A stretch of DNA of 64,000 nt from Muribaculaceae bacterium Isolate-037 (Harlan) (lineage in GTDB: Bacteria > Bacteroidota > Bacteroidia > Bacteroidales > Muribaculaceae). The DNA is taken from NCBI GenBank assembly GCA_003762615.1, contig RIAZ01000006.1, forward strand, positions 1-64,000, read 5' to 3'. The notes under the pieces are model-generated. The model was not told the DNA's origin, did no database searches, and saw only the letters and a list, made by a program, of their open reading frames with translations. Numbering within the stretch: the stretch's first letter is position 1; every line of letters starts with the position of its first letter. Below are positions 4,987 to 16,991 of this stretch, piece by piece. Made by a program: the position numbers and the translations under genes.

Positions 4987-6204
4987 ATGGCAACTATCAA
5001 GATTAAGATCAGATTCTCTAATGCCGGCACCAGTGCCGGACGTGTTGTGTATCAGGTGATCCATCGCCGGGTGATACGTCGTATCGCATCCGGAATATCA
5101 GTAAGGAAAGATATGTGGGAGGAGGCGACATCTCGCGTAGTGATGCCCCCGGATGCCATTGGCGATCTCGCCGTGGCAAACGAGATGAGAATCGCCAACA
5201 CCCGCATCGATGAGGACATGGAGGCGATTCGTAGCATAATCGACGGGTTGGAGGGGAGATACGGCGGGTATTCCGCAGATGACATTGTGGATGCCTTTCA
5301 GGCTCAGATAACCCCCATCCCTTTCCCCGACTTCATGGAGGAGGAGATATATCTAAAGGAGAAGAGCGGGAAGATGGGCACCGTGCGCACATATACCTCC
5401 GCGTTACGACGCTTGCGTGCTTTTGCCGCCGAGACGGGCTACGACATCAACATCATCACTGCCGATCTTATGGAGGAATACGAGTCGTGGCTCAGTCAGC
5501 GTGGCGTGGTCAACAATTCCATATCATTCTATATGCGGGCGTTGAGGGCAGTCTACTCCCGTATGGTGAAGACAGGTATGGTGCGCGAATGTCACCCCTT
5601 CGCCAACGTCTACACAGGGATTGCTAAGACGCGAAAACGTGCCATATCCGAGACCGACCTGCGGAAAGTGAGGATGCTCAATCTATCGGGCGACAACGCG
5701 CTGGAGATGGTGCGCGACATGTTTCTGCTCAGTTTCTATATGATGGGGATATCCTTCGTAGACATGGCATTCCTGAAAAAGACGGATATGCGTAATGAGG
5801 TGATAAGCTATTGCCGCGCCAAGACGGGGCAGAGCATCAACATCGGCGTCAACGCGAAGATACTCCACATGCTCGACAAGCATCCTTCGGCTACGGATTC
5901 TCCATATCTTCTACCAATCATCAGTGACCCGAAGGGCGACACGCGTAAGCAGTATCTCAACGCTTTGCGCGAGTTTAACAAGAAACTGAAGAAGATAGGG
6001 GAGAGGATAGGGCTTGCCGATAAGTTGACCACCTACACCAGCCGCCATTCATGGGCATCGATAGCACGCACGCGAAACGTGGAGCTGAGTGTGATCAGTG
6101 ACGCGCTCGGTCATCAGAGCGAGGCGACCACGCGCATCTACCTGGCTACGCTTGACACCGGACGTATCTCACGTGCCAACGACATCATCCTGCGCGGCTT
6201 CTGA
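4987..6204 (+). CDS. Tyrosine recombinase, candidate DNA invertase of the adjacent promoter segment
   Basis: A 405-residue site-specific tyrosine recombinase of the Bacteroidetes type: an N-terminal arm-binding region (1-110), a SAM-like core-binding domain (about 115-210) and a C-terminal catalytic domain. Visible catalytic residues are Lys279 (RAKTGQ), Arg353-His354 (TSRHSWAS), His376 (LGHQS) and Tyr385 (RIYLATL). At the usual first-arginine position there is Met253 (FYMMGISFVDM, where relatives often have RGMSFVDM); loss of that arginine is known in IntDOT. It has its own promoter and ends 181 bp before an inverted-repeat-bounded promoter segment. Single recombinases beside an invertible promoter usually act on it, so I infer it is the invertase. 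No tRNA or att site suggests an integrative element. Confidence 0.88.
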   Translation: MATIKIKIRFSNAGTSAGRVVYQVIHRRVIRRIASGISVRKDMWEEATSRVVMPPDAIGDLAVANEMRIANTRIDEDMEAIRSIIDGLEGRYGGYSADDIVDAFQAQITPIPFPDFMEEEIYLKEKSGKMGTVRTYTSALRRLRAFAAETGYDINIITADLMEEYESWLSQRGVVNNSISFYMRALRAVYSRMVKTGMVRECHPFANVYTGIAKTRKRAISETDLRKVRMLNLSGDNALEMVRDMFLLSFYMMGISFVDMAFLKKTDMRNEVISYCRAKTGQSINIGVNAKILHMLDKHPSATDSPYLLPIISDPKGDTRKQYLNALREFNKKLKKIGERIGLADKLTTYTSRHSWASIARTRNVELSVISDALGHQSEATTRIYLATLDTGRISRANDIILRGF

Positions 6205-6222
6205 CAGCCACACCACCACAGA

Positions 6223-6353
6223 AACGCGGAGAGCACAAAGTTTTTTAATTCCTTTGTGCTCTCCGCGTTCTTTGTGGTGAGTTTAACCGCAGAGAACACA
6301 GAGAGCGCAGAGAAATTATAAAAAACTCCGTGCTCTCCGCGTTCTTTGTGGTG
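6223..6353. repeat. Tandem long hairpins of a purine-rich repeat; likely terminator of the recombinase
   Basis: An 18-bp perfect inverted repeat (6223-6240 and 6252-6269) enclosing a T-rich loop begins 19 bp after the recombinase stop. A second, imperfect pair of the same family (left arm about 6285-6312, right arm about 6326-6353) follows. The units resemble CGCAGAG/CACAGAG repeats found between genes in many bacteria. Their place between recombinase and promoter segment would insulate the two, in both directions. Confidence 0.65.
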
Positions 6354-6385
6354 TAAAATCCACAAATGTTTGCCATTTTTGCCCG

Positions 6386-6408
6386 TCTCTAACTTAGAGT
6401 GGGGTATT
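6386..6408 (+). repeat. Left inverted repeat (IRL) of the putative invertible promoter segment
   Basis: A 23-bp arm that reappears in reverse complement at 6747-6769 with one mismatch (the A in GGTATT pairs against G in AATGCC). The arm contains an odd-length dyad, CTCTAA-C-TTAGAG, as expected for two recombinase half-sites. Confidence 0.85.
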
Positions 6409-6746
6409 GTGATTTAAATAACTGATAATTAAAATATTAAAAATTTATAAGTGCAACAAATGGTCAACAATTAAGGGAAATGGTCAACAAATTATGTACT
6501 TTTTCACGTCATATTTTTACTCTCAACGTTATTCTGATATTTTATATACCAACCCCTATATTCAGTCGAATAAATTCATGAGATTTAATTAATATTATTT
6601 TCTCATTAAGAAGATATGTCATTAATCATCAAATAAATAAGCAATAATAAATCAAAATTCACATAAATTCCAAATATAGGTTAATAAAAATTTTTGATTA
6701 AAATAAAATTTGTTCATATCAGCAGATTTTATTAATTTTGCCATGT
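6409..6746. promoter_or_regulatory. Putative invertible promoter segment (338 bp), in the ON orientation
   Basis: AT-rich, non-coding 338 bp between the two 23-bp inverted repeats. At its right end it carries a complete Bacteroidetes promoter facing the NusG-fusion gene. Inversion would turn this promoter toward the recombinase and its hairpins and leave the downstream operon without it. Bacteroides capsule loci are switched by inverted-repeat promoters upstream of upxY genes; this has the same layout. That it inverts in cells is inferred, not shown. Confidence 0.8.
6709..6740 (+). promoter_or_regulatory. Promoter inside the invertible segment, facing the NusG-fusion gene
   Basis: TTTG at 6709-6712, a 20-bp gap and TAATTTTG at 6733-6740 match the Bacteroidetes -33/-7 consensus exactly. 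The predicted start of transcription, about 6747, falls at the inner edge of the right inverted repeat, so flipping removes the promoter while leaving the RNA start inside the repeat. Confidence 0.85.
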
Positions 6747-6769
6747 AATGCCCCACTCTAAGTTAGAGA
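6747..6769 (-). repeat. Right inverted repeat (IRR) of the putative invertible promoter segment
   Basis: Reverse complement of the arm at 6386-6408 over 23 bp with a single mismatch. It is followed by a leader of 55-220 nt, depending on the start codon used by the next gene. Confidence 0.85.
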
Positions 6770-6783
6770 AGGACTAAGTTTGT

Positions 6784-6861
6784 ATGGGTAATACACTGAA
6801 AATGTGTATGTTCTGCCCTCACTATGCCATCGGGAAACCATTTCCCATCGGCAACACATAA
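6784..6861 (+). CDS. Possible 25-codon leader peptide
   Basis: ATG at 6784 opens MGNTLKMCMFCPHYAIGKPF..., ending TAA at 6861, the first reading frame of the phase-switched transcript. It overlaps the annotated start of the fusion gene in another frame and spans a GGGAAA-CCA-TTTCCC hairpin (6832-6846); a second hairpin, AGACC-TCAC-GGTCT, follows at 6876-6889. This could be a regulatory leader or chance; no homology is known to me. Confidence 0.25.
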   Translation: MGNTLKMCMFCPHYAIGKPFPIGNT

Positions 6862-8569
6862 AGCATTTGAGAATGAGACCTCACGGTCTGGAACTCTCGG
6901 TTTGCCATTATTCTTACGTTGGACAGTTTTACTGAGTCAACGAAAGGAAGAGCACTCTTCACTATACCCCCAAGTTACGGATTTTTCTACTGTGAACTTA
7001 TTGGAATATATAAGGTTGCAGAACGATGAGCTGAAAAAGTCCTCGTCACGTACAACGCAGGAAAAGACCGCTCAGTTTGTGACGACAATCTCCGGATATT
7101 GTGATGCCGACACCGACTTGCGAATGGCACAGACTACGCCCTTTGTCATGGGTTACGGAAAATCCATAACCGACGGCTCCGGCAAGACCTACAGCCCGAC
7201 CGTGGCAAACGAATGTGTGGAACGTCTGCGCGGAACCATCCGTAAAGCCATCCGCGACAAGGTAATACCCAATTACGATCCCATCCCCGAAGCACTCGAC
7301 AGACTGCGCAATGATGTATGGGGTCTTGAAGTGAAAGCCGAGTCACCAGTAAAGATAGATCTCCGGCTGACCGATGCCGTGTTGACCCTGACGCGCAAAT
7401 TAACTTGGATATTCGCTAACCGCTCCATTGCGGAGCAATCCGACGACCCGCAGCAGCGCCGTCGGCTCCGCGAAGAGACCACCGACGCACGTGCCGTGCT
7501 CATCTACCTCTTCAGCCTCTTCTTCTACGGACTCGACATCGAATCCATCCTCCGCCTCAAGACATCAGAACCCTCAGAAAATTCAGAGTGCTTCATCCCG
7601 AAATACGGTCGGGCATTGCCGATTCCGGCAGTAGCCCTCTCCCTCGCCCGAATGCACAACGAAGGGAAGATCTGCACCACCGGCGACCGACTCTTCAGCG
7701 TAATCAGCGATACAGATACCGACGCGCAGATTGCAGCCAAAGCGAAGCGCATCATGACGCGTGCCTGCAAATGGCTCCGCCGTCAGGAGATACCCCTCGC
7801 CACCTATCCCGACACCTTCAGCGAATGGCTCTCACTCGCCGCCGAGACCGGTGCACCGGCAGCAGCCATCGAGACAGCGATACAATGCGCCGTCAGCGGC
7901 AAGTTTACCGAGATAGACGAGCAGACATGGCTCGACCTCAACCGTTCGGAACGCAGTGTAGCCACATTCCTCCAGCACAACTGGTACGTACTCTGTAGCT
8001 ACTCCACCACCTTCCGTGGCGAAAAACTCCGTTCATTCATAGCACGTTCCGGCATCTTCGGCACAGAAACCGAAGCCTACCGCCGACTCTACAACCCCAC
8101 CGATAACACCGACGAACGCCCCACAGAGACATCCGCCATAAGCCGATTCGTCTTCCTCAAGGCGAACCCCATAGAGGCGATGCTCATCGACAGGCTAAGA
8201 CGCGACGCCGCACTTCTCCGCGTGAGCCGTACCCGCCAATTCGCAATAGTACCACAACACGAAATCGAGATCTTCCAGGTAGCCCTCCGCGACTTCCGCG
8301 ACGACGTAGACCTCGTAGACCGCGAGGAATGGATCGCCGCCCACCGTAAAGAATTCGCCAAATCCCAAAAAGTGATAATCCACACCGGACCCTTCAAAGG
8401 ACGCGAAGCCACCATCATCGACATCAAGACACCTAAAGCCATCGGCAGCAAAGCCCGTGGCACCACAGTAGGCGAAGCCACCGAACCCCACTACCTCCTC
8501 TCCCTCGCCCACGCCACCTTCACCATCGTCGCGACCCGCACCGCCCTCGCCCTCGACGCCGCCCCGTAG
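6824..8569 (+). CDS. Recombinase-like / UpxY-type NusG fusion, putative antiterminator of the polysaccharide operon
   Basis: A 581-codon frame with two halves. Residues about 57-370 follow the plan of a Bacteroidetes tyrosine recombinase: a SAM-like helical region, then IYLFSLFFYGLDIESILRLK and LATYPDTFSEWLSLAAETGA. These align by eye with FYMMGISFVDMAFLKK and LTTYTSRHSWASIARTRN of the neighbouring recombinase. The Arg-His pair is replaced by Thr-Phe and no catalytic Tyr is evident, so it should be inactive. Residues 386-485 form a NusG N-terminal (NGN) domain as in UpxY (NWYVLCSYSTTFRGEKLRSF, RFVFLKANP, IVPQHEIEIF). Residues 516-540 are a KOW motif (HTGPFKGREATIID). UpxY proteins prevent early termination of their own capsule operon. 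The first 56 residues look poorly conserved, so translation might begin at GTG 6992. Confidence 0.8.
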   Translation: MPSGNHFPSATHKAFENETSRSGTLGLPLFLRWTVLLSQRKEEHSSLYPQVTDFSTVNLLEYIRLQNDELKKSSSRTTQEKTAQFVTTISGYCDADTDLRMAQTTPFVMGYGKSITDGSGKTYSPTVANECVERLRGTIRKAIRDKVIPNYDPIPEALDRLRNDVWGLEVKAESPVKIDLRLTDAVLTLTRKLTWIFANRSIAEQSDDPQQRRRLREETTDARAVLIYLFSLFFYGLDIESILRLKTSEPSENSECFIPKYGRALPIPAVALSLARMHNEGKICTTGDRLFSVISDTDTDAQIAAKAKRIMTRACKWLRRQEIPLATYPDTFSEWLSLAAETGAPAAAIETAIQCAVSGKFTEIDEQTWLDLNRSERSVATFLQHNWYVLCSYSTTFRGEKLRSFIARSGIFGTETEAYRRLYNPTDNTDERPTETSAISRFVFLKANPIEAMLIDRLRRDAALLRVSRTRQFAIVPQHEIEIFQVALRDFRDDVDLVDREEWIAAHRKEFAKSQKVIIHTGPFKGREATIIDIKTPKAIGSKARGTTVGEATEPHYLLSLAHATFTIVATRTALALDAAP

Positions 8570-8848: not shown

Positions 8849-10282
8849 TTGTCTGAATCGCTGAAAAGAAAGACCCTAAAGGGCACACTCTGGAGCACTC
8901 TCGAAAGATTCTCCGTGCAGGGTATAGCATTCGTCGTCATGATTATCATGGCGCGTATACTTACCCCTGAGGACTACGGTCTTGTAGGGATGCTCACGAT
9001 ATTCATAGCCATTTCGCAGTCGCTTGTAAATAGTGGTTTCTCGCAAGCTTTAATCCGGAAACAGGACCGTTCGGAGGTTGACAACTCCACCGTCTTCTAC
9101 TTCAATATCGGAGTCGGGCTGGTTCTCTATCTCCTCCTCTTCCTCTGTGCTCCGCTTATTGCTCGGTTCTACAACGAGCCGATACTTGTGCCACTCACAC
9201 GACTTATCTCGGTCAGCGTGCTGATCAATTCCTTTGTCGTCGTGCAGAGAGCATTGCTGACGGTTAGGATAGACTTCAAGACACAGGCAAAGGCTTCATC
9301 TGCGGCTGCTGTTGTCTCCGGTGCGGTCGGTATAACGATGGCATACACCGGTTCTGGGGTGTGGTCGATAGTCTGGTATCAGCTGACCAACCTAACCGTT
9401 AATGTAGGTCTGCTGTGGATATTATCCCCATGGCGTCCGCAGTGGATATATTCATGGAAGTCTTTCCGTGAACTTTTCTCATTTGGATCTAAACTAGCTT
9501 TATCTGGAATTCTTGAGTCTCTCTACCAAAATATATATCTTATGATTATTGGAAAAGTATTCAAGGCATCCGATCTTGGCTATTATACGAGGGCACATCA
9601 GTTTGCGGAATTTCCGTCATCGAATGTATCAGGCATAATACAGCGAGTCACGTTCCCGATACTCTGCTCCATACAAGATGATGACGAGCGTCTTCGCAGT
9701 GTCTACCGCCGTTTCCTGCGTCTCTCCGCCTTCATCGTGTTCCCACTCATGATAGGGCTTGCGGCAGTGGCGCATCCGTTCATTCTGCTTGTGCTGAAGG
9801 AGCAGTGGGAGTTTGCCGCAGTCCTTCTCCAGATAATCTGTCTGGGTATGATGTGGTATCCAATCCATGCCATCAACCTCAATCTACTTCAGGTGAAGGG
9901 GAGGAGTGACCTGTTCCTCCGTCTGGAGATAATCAAGAAATGTCTCGGAGTCACCATGATATGCATCACTGTGCCGTTCGGCATAGTCGCCATGTGCTGG
10001 GGCTCCGTGGCGAACTCGATAATCGCACTGATAATCAACACCCACTATACGGGTAAACTCATACAGGTGGGCTTCCTGCGCCAGATGCGCGATCTTGTCC
10101 CGACACTCCTCTACTCATTCTCGATGGGCGCGGTGGTCTGGGGCGTGGTGCAGTTGGTTCCCGGCAACATGCTGAAACTCATAGCCGGCATACTGTCTGG
10201 CATCGTGTACTTCCTGATTGTGACGAGACTCACACGCTCGTCAGACCTGCGCGAGCTCCTTTCATTCGTAAAAACAAAATAA
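8849..10282 (+). CDS. Wzx-type polysaccharide flippase (MOP superfamily)
   Basis: A 477-residue polytopic membrane protein of the polysaccharide-transport/MATE-like superfamily, with about 12-14 hydrophobic segments throughout and the typical N terminus SLKRKTLKGTLWSTLERFSVQGIAFVVMIIMARILTPEDYGLVGM. Such proteins move undecaprenyl-linked oligosaccharide units across the inner membrane. The best N terminus needs a TTG start at 8849; the first in-frame ATG would cut off the first membrane segment. It is the first structural gene after the NusG fusion, as flippases often are in UpxY-led capsule loci. Confidence 0.9.
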   Translation: MSESLKRKTLKGTLWSTLERFSVQGIAFVVMIIMARILTPEDYGLVGMLTIFIAISQSLVNSGFSQALIRKQDRSEVDNSTVFYFNIGVGLVLYLLLFLCAPLIARFYNEPILVPLTRLISVSVLINSFVVVQRALLTVRIDFKTQAKASSAAAVVSGAVGITMAYTGSGVWSIVWYQLTNLTVNVGLLWILSPWRPQWIYSWKSFRELFSFGSKLALSGILESLYQNIYLMIIGKVFKASDLGYYTRAHQFAEFPSSNVSGIIQRVTFPILCSIQDDDERLRSVYRRFLRLSAFIVFPLMIGLAAVAHPFILLVLKEQWEFAAVLLQIICLGMMWYPIHAINLNLLQVKGRSDLFLRLEIIKKCLGVTMICITVPFGIVAMCWGSVANSIIALIINTHYTGKLIQVGFLRQMRDLVPTLLYSFSMGAVVWGVVQLVPGNMLKLIAGILSGIVYFLIVTRLTRSSDLRELLSFVKTK

Positions 10283-10294
10283 TCATTATAAATT

Positions 10295-11407
10295 ATGGAC
10301 GGTAACAAGCAGATTACCGTGACTTCTCCGCTACTTCCTGATCTGGAGGAGTTTCACGACATGCTCAGGGAGATCTGGGCAAGCAAGTGGATAACGAACA
10401 ACGGTTCCTTTCACAAGCAGTTGGAGAAGGAACTTGCCGCATATCTCAAGGTGCCATACATCAGTCTCTTCACCAACGGCACGTTGCCCCTTATCACAGC
10501 CCTCCAGGCACTGCGCATCACCGGTGAGGTCATAACCACCCCCTACAGCTTCGTCGCCACGACCCACTCCTTGTGGTGGAACGGCATCAAGCCGGTGTTC
10601 GTCGATGTGGATCCTGCCACCTGCAACCTTGACCCCTCAAAGATAGAGGCGGCAATAACTCCCAAGACCACCGCCATCATGCCCGTGCACTGCTACGGCA
10701 AGCCGTGCGACACGAAGGCGATACAGGAGATAGCCGACAAATACGGACTGAAGGTGATCTACGATGCCGCCCATGCCTTCGGTGTGGAGGTAAACGGGGA
10801 ATCCGTCCTCAATGCCGGCGACATGTCGACACTCTCGTTCCATGCCACCAAGGTCTACAACACGATCGAGGGCGGGGCGATGGTGATGCAGGATGAGGTG
10901 ACTAAGAGACGCATCGACTATCTGAAGAACTTCGGATTCGCCAACGAGACGACGGTTGTCGCCCCCGGCATCAACTCCAAGATGGACGAGATGCGCTCAG
11001 CCTACGGACTCCTCAATCTCCGTCAGGTGGATGCGGCGATAGCCGCCCGTCAGAAAGTGGCCAACTCCTACCGTGAGGCACTGCGCGACGTTGAGGGTAT
11101 CAGCTTCTTCGACGACATGCCCGGAGTGCGCCACAACTACAGCTACTTCCCGATCTTCATAGATGCGGAGCGGTTCGGCAAGACGCGCGATGCGCTCTAT
11201 CAGGAGATGAAGGAGGCCAACGTCCTCGGACGCCGCTACTTCTATCCCCTCATCAGCGAGTTCAGCACCTACAAGGGGCTTCCCTCGGCAACGCGCGAGA
11301 ACCTCCCCGTTGCACATAAACTTGCCGACACAGTACTCTGCCTGCCGATGCACCATGACCTATCGGATGCGGATATAGAAAGAGTCCTTAAATTCTTCAG
11401 GAAATGA
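10295..11407 (+). CDS. DegT/DnrJ/EryC1-type sugar aminotransferase
   Basis: A PLP-dependent aminotransferase of 370 residues that puts an amino group on a nucleotide-linked keto sugar. The family marks are VTSPLLPDLEEF at the N terminus, the TNGTLPLITALQAL turn, YDAAHAFGVEVNG with the PLP-binding Asp, and the PLP lysine in LSFHATKVYNTIEGGAMV. It overlaps the next gene, a NeuD/PglD-type acyltransferase, by 4 bp. Aminotransferase plus left-handed-helix acyltransferase is the arrangement of VioA/VioB and PglE/PglD, so a 4-amino-4,6-dideoxy sugar acylated on nitrogen is likely. The substrate could be dTDP-4-keto-6-deoxyglucose, made by the RmlB at 28849, but this is inferred. Confidence 0.9.
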   Translation: MDGNKQITVTSPLLPDLEEFHDMLREIWASKWITNNGSFHKQLEKELAAYLKVPYISLFTNGTLPLITALQALRITGEVITTPYSFVATTHSLWWNGIKPVFVDVDPATCNLDPSKIEAAITPKTTAIMPVHCYGKPCDTKAIQEIADKYGLKVIYDAAHAFGVEVNGESVLNAGDMSTLSFHATKVYNTIEGGAMVMQDEVTKRRIDYLKNFGFANETTVVAPGINSKMDEMRSAYGLLNLRQVDAAIAARQKVANSYREALRDVEGISFFDDMPGVRHNYSYFPIFIDAERFGKTRDALYQEMKEANVLGRRYFYPLISEFSTYKGLPSATRENLPVAHKLADTVLCLPMHHDLSDADIERVLKFFRK

Positions 11408-12039
11408 AGAATCTGATTATAATAGGAGCCCGTGGATTCGGTAGGGAAGTCTACAATCTTTATCTGGATTGTAGAAGGAATGATCCGGAATTAGTTTGCA
11501 AGGGGTTCCTTGATGACAAAGCGGATGCCTTGGATGGATATGAGGGGTATCCTCAAATAATATCCTCAGTGGAGGATTATGAAGTTCAGGACGATGATGT
11601 CTTTGTATGTGCCCTTGGTGATATCAGATACAAGAGGCAGTATGTGGAAAAAATACTTGCCAAAGGCGGTGAGTTTATATCCCTCATACATCCGGATGTG
11701 CAGATAGGGATGAACACAATGATAGGCAAAGGTTGCATAATACGCACTGCGTGCAGCATAAGCTGCGATATAACGATAGGTGATTATGTGACCATCATGG
11801 GTTATTCTGTACTTGGGCATGACTGCAAGGTCAGGGACTGGTCCCATCTTGGTGCATATTCATTCCTCGGAGGATTCTCAGAAGTCGGGGAGATGGTCAC
11901 GTTGCACCCCGGAGTGCGTCTGCTTCCACACAAGAAGGTCGGGGACAATTCCATCGTTGGAGCCGGTAGTGTAGTGTTGAGAAATGTTAAACCGGGGATA
12001 ACCGTATTCGGGGTCCCTGCAAAAAAAATAGAGTATTAA
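11404..12039 (+). CDS. NeuD/PglD-type sugar N- or O-acyltransferase
   Basis: A 211-residue protein with an N-terminal Rossmann-like substrate domain (KNLIIIGARGFGREVYNL) and a C-terminal left-handed beta-helix of hexapeptide repeats (IGKGCIIRTACSISCDITIGDYVTIMGYSVLGHDCKVRD). The catalytic His lies in VLGHDC, and GAGSVVLRNVKPGITVFGVPAK closes it, as in NeuD, PglD and VioB. The ACP gene begins 2 bp after its stop, so the acyl donor may be the acyl-ACP made by the next three genes rather than acetyl-CoA; that is inference from order. Confidence 0.9.
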   Translation: MKNLIIIGARGFGREVYNLYLDCRRNDPELVCKGFLDDKADALDGYEGYPQIISSVEDYEVQDDDVFVCALGDIRYKRQYVEKILAKGGEFISLIHPDVQIGMNTMIGKGCIIRTACSISCDITIGDYVTIMGYSVLGHDCKVRDWSHLGAYSFLGGFSEVGEMVTLHPGVRLLPHKKVGDNSIVGAGSVVLRNVKPGITVFGVPAKKIEY

Positions 12040-12040
12040 T

Positions 12041-12268
12041 ATGGATTTGAACAGTTTTATAGAGAAATTCGCAGAGGCGATTGAATTGGAGGATTCCTCT
12101 GTTTTGAGTGGAGATACAGTGTTCCGCACATTGCCGGAATGGGATTCCTTGTCCTATCTTTCAGTTATAGCTATGATGGATGAGGAATATGACATCCAGA
12201 TAGAGAACGCAGAGTTCAAGCAACTGCTGACAATAGAGGATCTTGTAAACTATATTTCCAACAGGTAA
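12041..12268 (+). CDS. Acyl carrier protein
   Basis: A 75-residue acidic protein with the phosphopantetheine site EWDSLSYL (Ser36) in the ACP context, followed by AMMDEEYDIQIENAEFKQLLTIEDLVNYI, which is the usual helix III/IV region. It overlaps the KAS III gene by one base. A specialised ACP inside a polysaccharide cluster points to a dedicated acyl group for sugar decoration rather than membrane lipid synthesis. Confidence 0.93.
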   Translation: MDLNSFIEKFAEAIELEDSSVLSGDTVFRTLPEWDSLSYLSVIAMMDEEYDIQIENAEFKQLLTIEDLVNYISNR

Positions 12269-13326
12269 TGGCATTCTCTTCATATACCGGGGTGGGTGTG
12301 ACAGCCCTCGCCGGGGCTGTCCCCCATACCGTGATAGACAATTACAGGTACACCGACCACTTCCCTGCTGATCAGGTCAAGGAAGTGGTTGACAAGGTTG
12401 GAATATACGAGCGCCGTTTCGCGGACAAGGACACGTGCTCCTCCGACCTCTGTTTTGCGGCGGCTCAGAGACTTATTGATGACAACGACATAGACAGGTC
12501 GGAGATAGACCTTCTGATATTCATATCCCAGACCCCTGACTACAGGATGCCTGCCACATCAGTACTGCTGCAGCATCGTCTCGGATTACCAAACTCGACG
12601 GTTGCGTTCGACATCAACCTTGGATGCTCCGCCTTCATATACGGGCTTAACGTAGTGTATGCACTCATGTCGGTAGGCAACTACCGTAAGGCATTACTGC
12701 TTGACGGGGAGACCCGGTCAAAGGTATATTCCCCTAAGGACAGACGTTCGGCATTCCTTTTCGGGGATGGTGGTGTCGCCGCGCTTATAGAGAGGGATGA
12801 GAAGTTTGGCAGGAGCTATTTCTCACTGAACTCCGACGGTTCACGCGGAGATCTCATCAAGATAAATGCCGGAGGCTACCGTATGCCGTCATCAGCCGAG
12901 ACCGTCAAGGAGAAGGTCGTCGATGAGTACGGCAACATCAGGAGTGAGGAGCAGGGCTACATGATGGGGGGCGATGTCTTCAATTTTGTCATACGTGAGA
13001 TACCTAAGGACATAAAGAAGACCCTTGAATACTCCGGCAAGACTGTGGCAGACTTCAACTACTTCATCTTCCATCAGGCGAACAACTTTATCAACAGCTA
13101 CCTTGCGAAGAAACTCAAGCTTGACACTGCCAGGATACCCTCCACAATAGAGAAGTATGGCAACACCTCCTCCGTGTCAGTCCCCCTGACCATCGCTGAT
13201 CAGCTGAAAGGGAAACTTGAAGGGGAGAACACCCTTCTTTTGAGTGCTTTCGGTGTCGGCATGACATGGGCTACGGCTGTGGTTCCATTCGTGAATCTTA
13301 ATATAAGCGACATAGTTGAGGTATGA
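12268..13326 (+). CDS. Beta-ketoacyl-ACP synthase III-like enzyme
   Basis: FabH-like thiolase-fold condensing enzyme of 352 residues. The catalytic triad is visible: Cys120 in DINLGCSAFIYGL, His269 in FIFHQANNF and Asn299 in YGNTSS, plus the C-terminal LLSAFGVGMTWA motif. Such enzymes condense an acyl-CoA with malonyl-ACP to give beta-ketoacyl-ACP. Packed between an ACP (1-bp overlap) and a ketoreductase (4-bp overlap), it probably makes acetoacetyl-ACP or a similar short chain for the sugar acyltransferase upstream. Start ATG 12268 gives the normal N terminus. Confidence 0.9.
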   Translation: MAFSSYTGVGVTALAGAVPHTVIDNYRYTDHFPADQVKEVVDKVGIYERRFADKDTCSSDLCFAAAQRLIDDNDIDRSEIDLLIFISQTPDYRMPATSVLLQHRLGLPNSTVAFDINLGCSAFIYGLNVVYALMSVGNYRKALLLDGETRSKVYSPKDRRSAFLFGDGGVAALIERDEKFGRSYFSLNSDGSRGDLIKINAGGYRMPSSAETVKEKVVDEYGNIRSEEQGYMMGGDVFNFVIREIPKDIKKTLEYSGKTVADFNYFIFHQANNFINSYLAKKLKLDTARIPSTIEKYGNTSSVSVPLTIADQLKGKLEGENTLLLSAFGVGMTWATAVVPFVNLNISDIVEV

Positions 13327-14084
13327 ATCCATTCTCGTTGGAAGATAAGGTTATAGTAATAACCGGGGCATCCTCAGGCATAGGAAGGCACACCGCCATC
13401 TCCTGTAGCCTGCAGGGTGCTTCGGTCATCCTTATAGGTCGTAATCCGGAACGTCTTCAGGAGACATACACATGCCTGTCTGAAGGCAAGAGACACGGCA
13501 GTTACGTGTTGGATCTCACGGATGATGCATGTATGTCGGATGTGGTTCAACAGATAAACACGGATTTTGGGAGGATAGACGGGATTGTACATTGTGCCGG
13601 CATTTCCGGGACATTGCCATTGAAATTGGCAGACACCGCTGAGATGGAAAGATATTTCTCCAACAATGCCATAGGTGCTGTCAACCTTACAAGGGAACTC
13701 TGCAAGGTCGGCAGGTTCTCCAAGGATGGAGGCAGCGTTGTGTTCCTGTCATCTGTCGCTGCACTTACAGGAGATCCCGGGAAAAGTCTGTATGCTATGA
13801 GCAAGGGAGCGTTGCTTTCAGGTTGCCGTGCCCTTGCAGCCGAATATGCACGAAGGAAAATCAGATTCAACTGCATATCTCCGGGAGTTATCATAACACC
13901 GATAAATGAGAATCTTCCGCATATCAAGGATCCCGAAAAAAGGAAGGCATTGGAGGCGAAGCATCTTCTTGGACTTGGAAAAACAGAGGATGTGGCGAAT
14001 GCATGCATCTACCTCTTGTCGGATGCATCCCGTTGGATCACAGGACAGAATCTCATCGTTGACGGGGGGTATACAGTGCAATAG
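13323..14084 (+). CDS. SDR-family oxidoreductase, FabG-like beta-ketoacyl-ACP reductase
   Basis: A classical short-chain dehydrogenase of 253 residues: the cofactor glycines TGASSGIG (14-21), an NAG-like motif written HCAGIS, and catalytic Ser144 (FLSSVAA), Tyr157 and Lys161 (YAMSKGAL), ending in WITGQNLIVDGGYTVQ as in FabG. With the ACP and KAS III before it, the simplest role is reduction of beta-ketoacyl-ACP to 3-hydroxyacyl-ACP, for use as an N-acyl donor on the amino sugar. It could instead act on a sugar. The gene ends the GC-rich part of the cluster. Confidence 0.88.
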   Translation: MNPFSLEDKVIVITGASSGIGRHTAISCSLQGASVILIGRNPERLQETYTCLSEGKRHGSYVLDLTDDACMSDVVQQINTDFGRIDGIVHCAGISGTLPLKLADTAEMERYFSNNAIGAVNLTRELCKVGRFSKDGGSVVFLSSVAALTGDPGKSLYAMSKGALLSGCRALAAEYARRKIRFNCISPGVIITPINENLPHIKDPEKRKALEAKHLLGLGKTEDVANACIYLLSDASRWITGQNLIVDGGYTVQ

Positions 14085-14271
14085 TTGTTTCGTTGAATAC
14101 TTGGGTATACAAGAAATGATTAAAGGATTTGTCCGATTACTACAATATCATTAATGAGAAGACTATCAGCTTCGCGTGTAGGTCGCACCCTCTCAAGAGG
14201 AGAGGCTAATTTATTAACCTCTTGTGTACAAGGTCGCGGAGGAGTCTACAAGAATCATAATTCTTAATATC

Positions 14272-14469
14272 ATGATCAAAATTCTTTTATTGATCGTGGC
14301 CTTTGTGTAGTGGGCGTATGGATTATCCAAATACATAACTACATTTGAGTAGGCCATTGATGATTACAGAGAAGCAAGGAGCAGGTCATCCTTTAAGAAA
14401 CTTGCTTGGGGATTCTGCGGAATTCTTTGGGAGGAATTGCTTTTTATACTTAGTTTTATACCCCTCTGA
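14272..14469 (+). pseudogene. Remnant of a small membrane protein with two in-frame TAG codons
   Basis: From ATG 14272 to TGA 14467-14469 one frame reads MIKILLLIVAFV, stop, WAYGLSKYITTFE, stop, AIDDYREARSRSSF... then KKLAWGFCGILWEELLFILS. That pattern is two hydrophobic segments around a charged middle, as in a real small protein, broken by TAG at 14308 and 14350. I read it as a decayed gene. No family recognised. Confidence 0.4.
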
Positions 14470-14499
14470 TACGAGTAAAGGGTGACATCGAAAATAATA

Positions 14500-14554
14500 G
14501 AGTTGATTTAAGCTGTGTATTTAAATCAACTCAAACAACAGCTTAAATCAACTC
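14500..14554. repeat. 17-bp perfect inverted repeat
   Basis: GAGTTGATTTAAGCTGT at 14500-14516 and its exact complement at 14538-14554, with a further copy of TTAAATCAACTC at 14521-14532 in the loop. There is no T run, so a recombination or protein-binding site is as likely as a terminator. Confidence 0.6.
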
Positions 14555-14625
14555 AATTTGTCTAATCAATTGCAGGGAATCAGCCGCGAATGATCCCCTA
14601 CACGGAACGGTCTAATATTGTCAAT

Positions 14626-15591
14626 ATGAATGAAAATAAAAAATTGAATAAGCCATTGTCGTTTGCTCCTGTTATTATTCCGACATTGTGTAGATATGAT
14701 CATTTGAAAAAGTGTGTGGAATCCTTAATGAAGTGTACCTGGGCAGAAGAAACAGAAGTATATATTGGTCTTGACTATCCTCTAAAGGAATCTCATTGGG
14801 AGGGATATAAAAAAATAGAACAATATTTGAACTCTCTTAAAAAAACGCATTTATTCAAGACTCTTCATGTGGTAATACGTTCTACGAATTTAGGTATTGG
14901 TCCAAATGGTAATTCTGAAAATCTTCGTGATATTGCGTTTAAAAATCATGACAAATTAATTTTTACTGAAGATGATAATATTTTTTCACCTTCATTTCTT
15001 GTGTTTATTAACGAAGGTCTTGAAAAGTTTCGAGATGATTCTTCAGTATTTGCAATCAATGGTTACCGGCATTTTTATGATGTAAAATTTATGAATAATA
15101 ATTTTTATCGTCAAAATGTTGATTTTTCGGCATGGGGTTATGGTATTTGGAGAGACCGATATTATAAGTTAAAGGAAGCAAGTAATTCAAAATATTGGCG
15201 TTTAAAAGCGATTAATCCATTAAATTGGTTTAGAATTTATAAAAATGGTTGGAATAGGGTATTGGGCTTTATTAGTCTTGTATATAAAACGAAAGTTCTA
15301 TTTGATAACGAGAAAAGTGTGTACATTGCTATAAACAATATGGACGTTATTATGCCTAAAGAATCAATGGTTCGTAATTTAGGATGGGATGGATCTGGTG
15401 AACATTGTAAAACTGTAGATAAAAATCTCATAGTTTCACATATAACACAACCCATCTATACCCACACAACTTTTGACTATAAAGGGAATGGGAAAGAGTA
15501 TTACAAGGAAAATAAGAAGATTTATGTGAATCAATCTTATGGACGTATTTCATTTAAGGACTTATTGAAAAATATAATTCAGAGATTTTGA
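14626..15591 (+). CDS. Glycosyltransferase, GT-A (family 2-like)
   Basis: A protein of about 320 residues with a GT-A-like N-terminal half: FAPVIIPTLCRYDHLKKCVESLMKC as nucleotide-binding start, LGIGPNGNSENLRDIAF, and the acidic metal/sugar-nucleotide motif IFTEDDNIFSPSF (EDDN). A WGYGIWRDRYY motif follows. It probably adds one residue to the lipid-linked repeat unit on the cytosolic face. ATG 14590 is also in frame but adds a GC-rich N-terminal stretch unlike the rest of the AT-rich gene, so 14626 is preferred. Codon use is markedly AT-rich, as in the next five genes. Confidence 0.78.
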   Translation: MNENKKLNKPLSFAPVIIPTLCRYDHLKKCVESLMKCTWAEETEVYIGLDYPLKESHWEGYKKIEQYLNSLKKTHLFKTLHVVIRSTNLGIGPNGNSENLRDIAFKNHDKLIFTEDDNIFSPSFLVFINEGLEKFRDDSSVFAINGYRHFYDVKFMNNNFYRQNVDFSAWGYGIWRDRYYKLKEASNSKYWRLKAINPLNWFRIYKNGWNRVLGFISLVYKTKVLFDNEKSVYIAINNMDVIMPKESMVRNLGWDGSGEHCKTVDKNLIVSHITQPIYTHTTFDYKGNGKEYYKENKKIYVNQSYGRISFKDLLKNIIQRF

Positions 15592-15932
15592 ATTTATGTA
15601 AGCGGTAAGTGGAAATTCCCTGTGAATATTCAATTTTGGTAAGTATTCAATTTTAATATCTGCCAATGAAAGGGAATAATGCATATCTTTGCACTGATAA
15701 ATTTTTAAATTGAAAGAGAGGCGGGTATGTGAGATATTATAATTTATAGTGATTGAGTATGCTGATGCTTAATTCTGGGATGTTTTACGCATTTTTTTAC
15801 TTTGTTGTTTACTTACAGTGCTTATATTTTAAAATATTCTATGTCGATATGCTCGAATGAATGCCTCGTGGAGTATTGATACAGAAGTACTGCAAGCAGA
15901 ATAACGTATAATACAATTCTATTGTCGTAAAT
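15592..15932. other. AT-rich spacer with a promoter-like box and a gene fragment
   Basis: TATCTTTG at 15684-15691 matches the Bacteroidetes -7 box, though no TTTG lies 19-21 bp upstream. From ATG 15861 a frame (MPRGVLIQKYCKQNNV, then TAA at 15909) continues in phase into the next gene, so the left end of this glycosyltransferase reading frame seems to include a remnant of another coding sequence. Confidence 0.45.
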
Positions 15933-16991
15933 GTGGATGAAAACTCTCCCTTTAGGGTGGTGGAGTCAGATATTAATATAAAGGACTTTGAAATCCTTTC
16001 TCCTAACCCCACAAGTCAAAGAAGGACGCTTACTGTTCACGGTTTGGTAGAAATGAATAATTTAGATATCGTATATAAGTTTATGAGTGAAAATATTAAA
16101 ATGCTTAGAAGATTAAATTCGGATAAAGATAATCCGATTAATAAAGATATTGCGATAATAATTCTTAATTATAATAGTGAGGTAGATACGATAAAATGTG
16201 TTAAATCACTTCAAGAACAGAGATATGATTCTTTTGAAATAATTATAGTTGATAATTGCTCTAAAAAGCCGTCTCTTAATGTTATTAGAAATTTCTGTTA
16301 TAATGAATCAATACATCTTATTGAGAATAATAAGAATAATGGATATAATGCTGGAAATAATATTGGATTGAAATATGCATTTAATAAAGGTTATAAGTAT
16401 GCACTGATTGCAAACCCTGATATGGAATTTCCTGATAAAGATATGTTGCAGATTCTTGTTGATAGAATGTCAAATGATATTGTTGTAGTTGCTCCAGATA
16501 TACGAGGTATTGACAATTCTCATCAGAATCCATATAAGCGATTAGGGGACTGGAAACATTCGTTTTATTGGATAGGTAATGTGATTCGATCTATTATTGA
16601 TTCGAATGCAAAGGATTCCTTATTTGATGATTGGAGTAAATCACATTATTGTGCCATGGTGAGTGGATGCTGTTTCTTGATTGATTTGAAATTTGTTGAT
16701 GCTATTGGATACTTTGATGAGGGTGTTTTTCTGTATTGTGAGGAATCAATATTATCTCGACAAGTTGAACAGTTGAAATATAAGATGTGGTATTGTGCTA
16801 ATACTTATGCAGTACATGCACATATAGAAAAAGCCAAAGGAAATCCGAACCCACGAATAAGAATTTGGTATAGATCAAAAAAATATTTTATACGTAATTA
16901 TAGTGGTAATAGTTGGATCGGAAGGCAAATTGCTTATTTTTCGGCTTGGCTAAATTGTATGGTTCAATTGATGATACATTCGGTTAAATAA
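15933..16991 (+). CDS. Glycosyltransferase family 2 (rhamnosyltransferase-like)
   Basis: The GT2 domain starts near residue 70: DIAIIILNYNSEVDTIKCVKSL, VDNCSKKPS, NNGYNAGNNIGLKYA, then the metal-binding ALIANPDMEF (NPD in place of DxD) and FDEGVFLYCEESILSRQVEQL. This form is common in rhamnosyl- and related transferases of polysaccharide loci. The first 40 residues or more do not look like part of the domain. The frame begins with GTG 15933, and ATG 16053 (MNNLDIVYKF) is a credible true start. It probably adds one sugar to the repeat unit. Confidence 0.82.
   Translation: MDENSPFRVVESDINIKDFEILSPNPTSQRRTLTVHGLVEMNNLDIVYKFMSENIKMLRRLNSDKDNPINKDIAIIILNYNSEVDTIKCVKSLQEQRYDSFEIIIVDNCSKKPSLNVIRNFCYNESIHLIENNKNNGYNAGNNIGLKYAFNKGYKYALIANPDMEFPDKDMLQILVDRMSNDIVVVAPDIRGIDNSHQNPYKRLGDWKHSFYWIGNVIRSIIDSNAKDSLFDDWSKSHYCAMVSGCCFLIDLKFVDAIGYFDEGVFLYCEESILSRQVEQLKYKMWYCANTYAVHAHIEKAKGNPNPRIRIWYRSKKYFIRNYSGNSWIGRQIAYFSAWLNCMVQLMIHSVK

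Follow-up and report, generated by a model that had tools for sequence, protein, structure and literature searches.

A gene at the head of a surface polysaccharide locus in a Muribaculaceae genome encodes, within one open frame, a catalytically dead tyrosine-recombinase-like region followed by an NGN-KOW region of the NusG/UpxY type. This recombinase-NusG architecture is real, recurrent and apparently undescribed. It defines a family-wide group in the Muribaculaceae rather than a one-off: proteins of about 450–630 aa, hereafter long forms, in which the recombinase-like and NGN-KOW parts share a single frame. From sequence comparison we propose, with a probability of roughly 60%, that the gene encodes an operon-resident, UpxY-like elongation factor in which the dead recombinase would serve as a targeting or control module. 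The case bears on how specialised NusG proteins reach only their own operon, and the fusion to a domain from the type of enzyme that flips capsule promoters makes a direct test of operon targeting possible. Muribaculaceae are abundant in the mouse gut, and the fusion suggests that in them a single protein can link phase variation physically to elongation control. No description of a recombinase-NusG fusion was found in the titles or abstract openings of the papers listed by full-text literature searches, subscription papers and preprints aside, in agreement with a first-pass annotation of this DNA that knew of no protein so built. The accessible main text of two papers on NusG paralogues (PMC7593976, PMC7819879) is without the words recombinase, integrase and fused; in the accessible text of a third, which brings together UpxY, a tyrosine recombinase and the word fusion (PMC4747536), that word refers to FLAG-tag fusions and fusion PCR.

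Domains of the fusion protein and their ancestry

The frame at positions 6824–8569 of the window (the whole stretch of 64,000 nucleotides that was analysed) is uninterrupted on the plus strand and gives 581 aa from ATG 6824, where the first-pass annotation had opened the protein. The two paralogues described below point elsewhere: because the first residue of each aligns with window residue 56, we prefer GTG 6992 (residue 57), so that, judging from this alignment, the true product probably has 525 residues and 6824–6991 is probably leader, not coding sequence. The leader as a whole extends over 6778–6991 (plus strand), with ATG 6824 opening the longer frame inside it and the conserved protein beginning near GTG 6992. 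Three parts follow on the plus strand: the dead tyrosine-recombinase-like region of about 325 aa (6992–7972), composed of a SAM-like core-binding domain and a pseudo-catalytic domain and recognised through sequence links, its fold coming from a relative only; a UpxY-like NGN (NusG N-terminal) domain (7979–8353); and a KOW domain (8354–8566), the last two with approximate boundaries.

Family-model matches of this protein, taken alone, are suggestive only, and it is the relatives that decide. The NCBIfam UpxY model NF033644 matches residues 434–538 with an E-value of 2.9e-7 and 30.6 bits, for a cut-off of 100; the Pfam matches to KOW (E 0.003) and to Phage_int_SAM_5 (residues 58–150, E 0.012) are weak; and a PDB sequence search with the protein gave three matches at chance level. 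The same pattern is found in the profile comparisons. The first-pass annotation had aligned residues 57–370 with the recombinase next door, a kinship that direct comparison of the three paralogues with the neighbouring recombinase family did not bear out (E 0.044, probability 1%) and that the relatives did. The paralogues match the long-form family across the pseudo-catalytic, NGN and KOW regions (E 3.1e-6, probability 88%); the window recombinase, used as query, matches three long forms (L082, L021 and L079), the best being L082 with an E-value of 2.6e-13 over recombinase residues 124–376; and the N-terminal half of a 32-row long-form profile matches separate recombinase-type genes with E-values down to 1.1e-16. 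With hhalign, the match of the long-form family to four recombinases is weak (E 0.0014, probability 18%). Scanned singly against Pfam at E 0.1 or better, 22 of the 32 aligned long forms match NusG, nine KOW, nine Phage_int_SAM_5 (best 3.3e-11) and six Phage_int_SAM_1. At the level of sequence, descent of the N-terminal half from a tyrosine recombinase is strongly indicated, with the link of the window protein itself firm only through its relatives.

Predicted folds, proposed in the first-pass annotation as a check, were informative in a relative, whereas the model of the window protein, made from a five-row alignment, reached a pLDDT of only 45 and was kept out of the fold searches. The relative, L099, was modelled by AlphaFold2 with 23 sequences (pLDDT 83, pTM 0.73). 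With Foldseek it has 23 matches with E-values no higher than 1e-3, all of them to NusG/RfaH proteins or tyrosine recombinases, the latter including lambda Int, XerA, the Brujita integrase and Cre. In VIA-align, residues 10–282 match Xer 4a8e with a Z-score of 11.6 over 236 aligned residues and an rmsd of 13.6, from which it follows that the two subdomains are placed differently; residues 109–256 match integrase 3nkh (Z 9.2, rmsd 3.3 over 138), residues 285–405 the NGN domain of RfaH 8pen (Z 8.8, rmsd 2.9 over 100), and residues 412–473 KOW-like barrels. This representative is thus predicted to fold as an Xer-like region followed by NGN and KOW domains. According to a warning of the tool, Z-scores of this size can often arise with helical models, and we let the sequence matches, not the Z-scores, carry the recombinase-NusG claim. 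The UpxY-type NGN and KOW domains recognised at the first pass are supported by the UpxY model match, which is below the cut-off, by the Pfam NusG matches of the long forms and by the L099 fold.

The loss of the Arg-His pair and of the catalytic Tyr, noted at the first pass for the window protein, turned out to be general. In an alignment of four intact-looking recombinases with 32 long forms, the window protein among them, Arg-II, His and the nucleophile Tyr are each kept in 0/32; the Lys column is kept in two and is a gap in 25. The main clade has an FSR motif with an Arg about three columns off the Arg-II column, which could be a displaced Arg-II. A search by eye for a still-active recombinase-NusG protein among seven further long frames found the Arg-His and Tyr boxes kept in none. 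Two frames, L128:902-2773 (624 aa) and L133:1020-2693 (558 aa), retain by eye a Gly-His like that of the recombinase box and not the rest, and are possible intermediates of decay. The net charge of the N-terminal halves of the 32 long forms averages -1.2 (range -11 to +7), and that of the last 290 residues of the four intact recombinases is +12 to +23. DNA binding by the dead domain is therefore not assured, and its near-neutral charge speaks against a classical DNA grip.

Copies, spread and origin of the long forms

Two close paralogues in the home genome, C52 and C102, have the same open frame as the window gene (65% identity). The dN/dS ratio is 0.088 for C52/C102 and 0.339 and 0.328 for the pairs that involve the window gene, and sequence comparison strongly indicates that the N-terminal half is kept under purifying selection. 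The same genome also encodes L021 (480 aa) and L022 (463 aa), both divergent from the window protein and each with integrase SAM-like and NusG matches within a single frame. At E 1e-3 the UpxY model finds six matches there, five of which are long frames; the sixth, a frame of 190 aa on C20, is the housekeeping NusG, judged by its gene neighbours.

The window-type clade is rare. A profile of the three paralogues at E 1e-10 matches 4/397 family genomes, the home genome counted, and the window protein at E 1e-5 matches one of 61 near-relative genomes, namely the home genome. No close relatives appeared in a scan of a genome-contig collection with the window protein or in a scan of viral contigs with the three paralogues. 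The wider search for other proteins with the same pairing, as suggested in the first-pass annotation, revealed the long forms throughout the family. Profile A2, built from eight long forms, matches 228 of the 397 family genomes at E 1e-8, long and short proteins pooled; among the 150 matches listed, at least 101 have an open frame of at least 430 aa, five have frames of 313–373 aa and 44 are shorter. About 60 long proteins were aligned or profile-checked, some being the same gene met in two collections, and the remaining ones are assigned this architecture from their frame length and profile match. One single-contig genome carries three long forms, and Isolate-036 carries two, L099 and L101. 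The 28 named loci encoding relatives are labelled Muribaculaceae or Paramuribaculum (14), Porphyromonadaceae (9), Bacteroidales (2), and, once each, bacterium, Bacteroides sp. and Alistipes sp.

Beyond the family the two halves were met separately. At most three or four candidates were scored per genome in the order and class samples; within this scope, the 52 matches listed outside the family in the order sample (393 genomes) are all frames of 166–241 aa, and in the class sample (345 genomes, profile A3) all 75 matches outside the home genome cover one half only, either the N-terminal (24, in frames of 310–449 aa) or the C-terminal (51). The single N-terminal-half match of the class sample that was inspected, L119, is an intact tyrosine recombinase. 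The UpxY cut-off is exceeded in 67 of 99 family genomes, among the matches listed nearly always by short proteins; one long form, L082 (483-aa frame), also exceeds it, with 106.6 bits. In a tree of the NGN-KOW region that includes 22 short proteins, three of them grouped with NusG, the long forms require two label changes and 0/200 bootstrap trees require only one, whereas the well-supported branches force only one. A single origin of the long forms is thus neither shown nor ruled out by these sequences.

The upstream switch and the polysaccharide operon

A tyrosine recombinase of 405 aa (4987–6204, plus strand), the probable invertase of the adjacent switch, has Ser at the Arg-I position and retains Lys, Arg-II, His and Tyr. 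The switch consists of the left arm of an inverted repeat (6378–6408, plus strand, core TCTCTAACTTAGAGTGGGG), an invertible segment of 338 bp (6409–6746), the inversion of which is deduced from paralogous loci, and the right arm (6747–6777, minus strand). Within it, the promoter-like TTG-N20-TAATTTTG at 6710–6740 (plus strand), a motif match without chance control which we take to be a promoter from the Bacteroidales consensus, faces the fusion gene (ON). The same type of repeat is found at C52, truncated by the contig end and with the promoter motif facing the gene (ON), and at C102, where the motif faces away from it (OFF). The two segments align with a score of 160 in opposite orientation and of 31 as assembled, the best of 200 shuffles scoring 34; since they align well only in opposite orientation, they are evidence, from a comparison of paralogous loci, that inversion happens in nature. 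Both orientations of a promoter between repeats are thereby seen in C52 versus C102, not at the window locus, and sequence comparison strongly indicates that the promoter ahead of the operon of the fusion gene lies between inverted repeats. Between the recombinase and the switch (window:6223-6343) there are strong inverted repeats with AACGCGGAGAGCACAAAG, which may be a terminator or a repeat element.

We examined 40 long-form loci for such a switch, defining a paired site as two TCTCT-N5-AGAGA with five-base cores that are reverse complements. The first-pass annotation had asked whether each fusion follows an inverted-repeat promoter, and the answer is mixed. Upstream DNA of 600 bp or more was available at 33 of the loci; among these, the pair is present in 11 (window, C102, L022, L080, L084, L100, L103, L104, L106, L108 and L110) and missing from 22, nine of which belong to the L085-L096 clade; a further set of seven long-form loci (L132 being the same place as L112) had the pair in none and a single site in one. 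C52, L099 and L101, with shorter upstream DNA, have one TCTCT-N5-AGAGA site each, against a background of 49 single sites in the 380 kb of remaining DNA of these loci. The promoter motif occurs in three of 11 further invertons or part-invertons, facing away from the gene each time. The palindromic TCTCT-N5-AGAGA (window:6388-6402) recurs at L005, L022, L080, L084, L100, L103, L104, L106, L108 and L110, and its presence in invertons of different genomes points to a single invertase class. A lone repeat core at L019:7309-7323 (C69:185308) lies next to a transposase-like gene and no fusion gene; it was set aside, being no more than the reversed-pattern control gives, namely one match.

Judged by position and gene content, the fusion gene heads a putative surface polysaccharide operon. 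The first genes of this locus (8849–16991, plus strand) encode, by Pfam content, a flippase, a DegT aminotransferase, a hexapeptide acetyltransferase, a KAS III-like protein, an SDR and a glycosyltransferase 2, with one gene (14590) having no Pfam match. Between 8569 and 8849, where an adjacent upxZ could stand, there is no plus-strand ORF of at least 80 aa; an adjacent upxZ gene is not universal for UpxY. In eight further loci we scanned the next ORF of at least 130 aa after the long form, which is typical of polysaccharide loci in six, clearly at L097, L102, L109 and L112 and less specifically at L106 and L107, and had no match at L099 and L110. The antitermination target is not visible, because between 6200 and 9000 terminator-like sites are absent from the plus strand (two were found, both on the minus strand) and an Rfam scan gave no match. 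By eye, the leaders of the window gene and its paralogues have no element in common beyond the repeat and a few adjoining bases.

Proposed role, alternatives and known relatives

The C-terminal half and the position of the gene are the grounds for proposing a UpxY-like action on its own operon. Once the promoter flips ON, the fusion gene, as the first of the operon, would be expressed; its NGN domain would bind RNA polymerase and keep it going to the end of this long operon; and the dead recombinase would confine the factor to the home locus or exert feedback there. To do so, the dead domain might touch DNA of the leader or the switch, bind the active invertase or act on the adjoining NGN domain; given the N-terminal charge, the last two deserve as much consideration as DNA binding. 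Several observations count against the UpxY-like reading: the 30.6 of 100 bits scored by the window protein, the near-neutral N-terminal charge where DNA targeting is concerned, the absence of a visible antitermination target, the leader that differs between the window gene and its paralogues, the 22 of 33 loci without the switch pair, the position of the L085-L096 clade beside pectin genes, and the caution attached to the fold Z-scores together with the poor model of the window protein.

Comparison with known systems places the protein close to UpxY and yet apart from it. UpxY proteins of Bacteroides capsule operons, as presented in the accessible text of PMC7819879 and PMC7593976, share with it the NGN-KOW domains and the place in a polysaccharide operon, which in the window has a switchable promoter upstream. 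They are compact, with NGN and KOW only and under about 250 aa, whereas the fusion protein and its paralogues have 525–581 aa, and the window protein has an extra recombinase-derived region of roughly 300 aa and an NCBIfam score below the cut-off. The window protein thus resembles UpxY in its genomic place and C-terminal half, and falls outside UpxY by size and score. RfaH is likewise a specialised NusG, the NGN fold of L099 matching it, but acts in trans at ops sites and has no recombinase-like region. In Bacteroides fragilis, the tyrosine recombinase BF2766/Tsr19 is reported to flip promoters linked to polysaccharide synthesis (PMC4747536, accessible text), a setting comparable to window 4987–6777, where a tyrosine recombinase stands beside an invertible polysaccharide promoter; BF2766/Tsr19 is an active separate enzyme, whereas 32/32 aligned long forms are without Arg-II, His and Tyr.

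How the dead domain would act can be imagined in several ways. It might recognise the switch or the bound invertase and load the NGN half on polymerase leaving the flipped promoter, coupling inversion to processive transcription, a mechanism we put forward tentatively and with more doubt than belief. It seems unlikely, in turn, that the domain acts on the switch itself, forming mixed complexes with the invertase or covering a repeat so as to bias or lock orientation, while NGN-KOW signals transcription. The 11 loci that have the TCTCT-N5-AGAGA pair fit such an action, but the 22 loci without the pair and the near-neutral N-terminal charge count against it. Similarly, an intact recombinase adjoins the long form in the window and at L104, and a recombinase fragment at L079, but in the flanking DNA analysed, which differs in length between loci, these were the only three long-form loci with a recombinase when the window recombinase served as query (E 1e-8). 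Regulatory, DNA-binding dead recombinase folds do exist, and SroF is among the fold matches of L099 (Z 8.9). We know of no NGN-KOW half in MrpR/YopR, the master repressor of prophage SPbeta. This protein resembles the long forms in another respect, having, according to the accessible text of PMC10516654, a tyrosine recombinase fold that has lost recombination and been put to regulation, binding DNA as a repressor; if our reading is true, the long forms would add to the cases in which a site-specific recombinase has been turned to regulation without catalysis.

Alternatively, the N-terminal region might be an appendage, either self-inhibiting or purely structural, that covers the NGN surface in the manner of the C-terminal domain of RfaH and makes no contact with switch DNA. 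The loss of both catalytic residues and positive charge fits this idea, as does the wide divergence of the N-terminal half between clades, but conserved positions persist in that half within the main clade, and we regard it as rather improbable. A join of two neighbours by sequencing error, a danger raised at the first pass and excluded because the architecture recurs in many assemblies, can be dismissed together with a recent non-functional fusion, both being refuted by these assemblies, by the three copies on a one-contig genome and by purifying selection.

The long forms of the L085-L096 clade stand alone: they lie beside pectin genes, do not head a capsule operon and have no paired inverton site, and they may act in trans. 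In this clade the next ORF of at least 130 aa is on the opposite strand in nine of the 11 loci having one, and the two neighbours scanned encode a rhamnogalacturonan lyase (RGL11) at L085 and a GH88 enzyme at L088.
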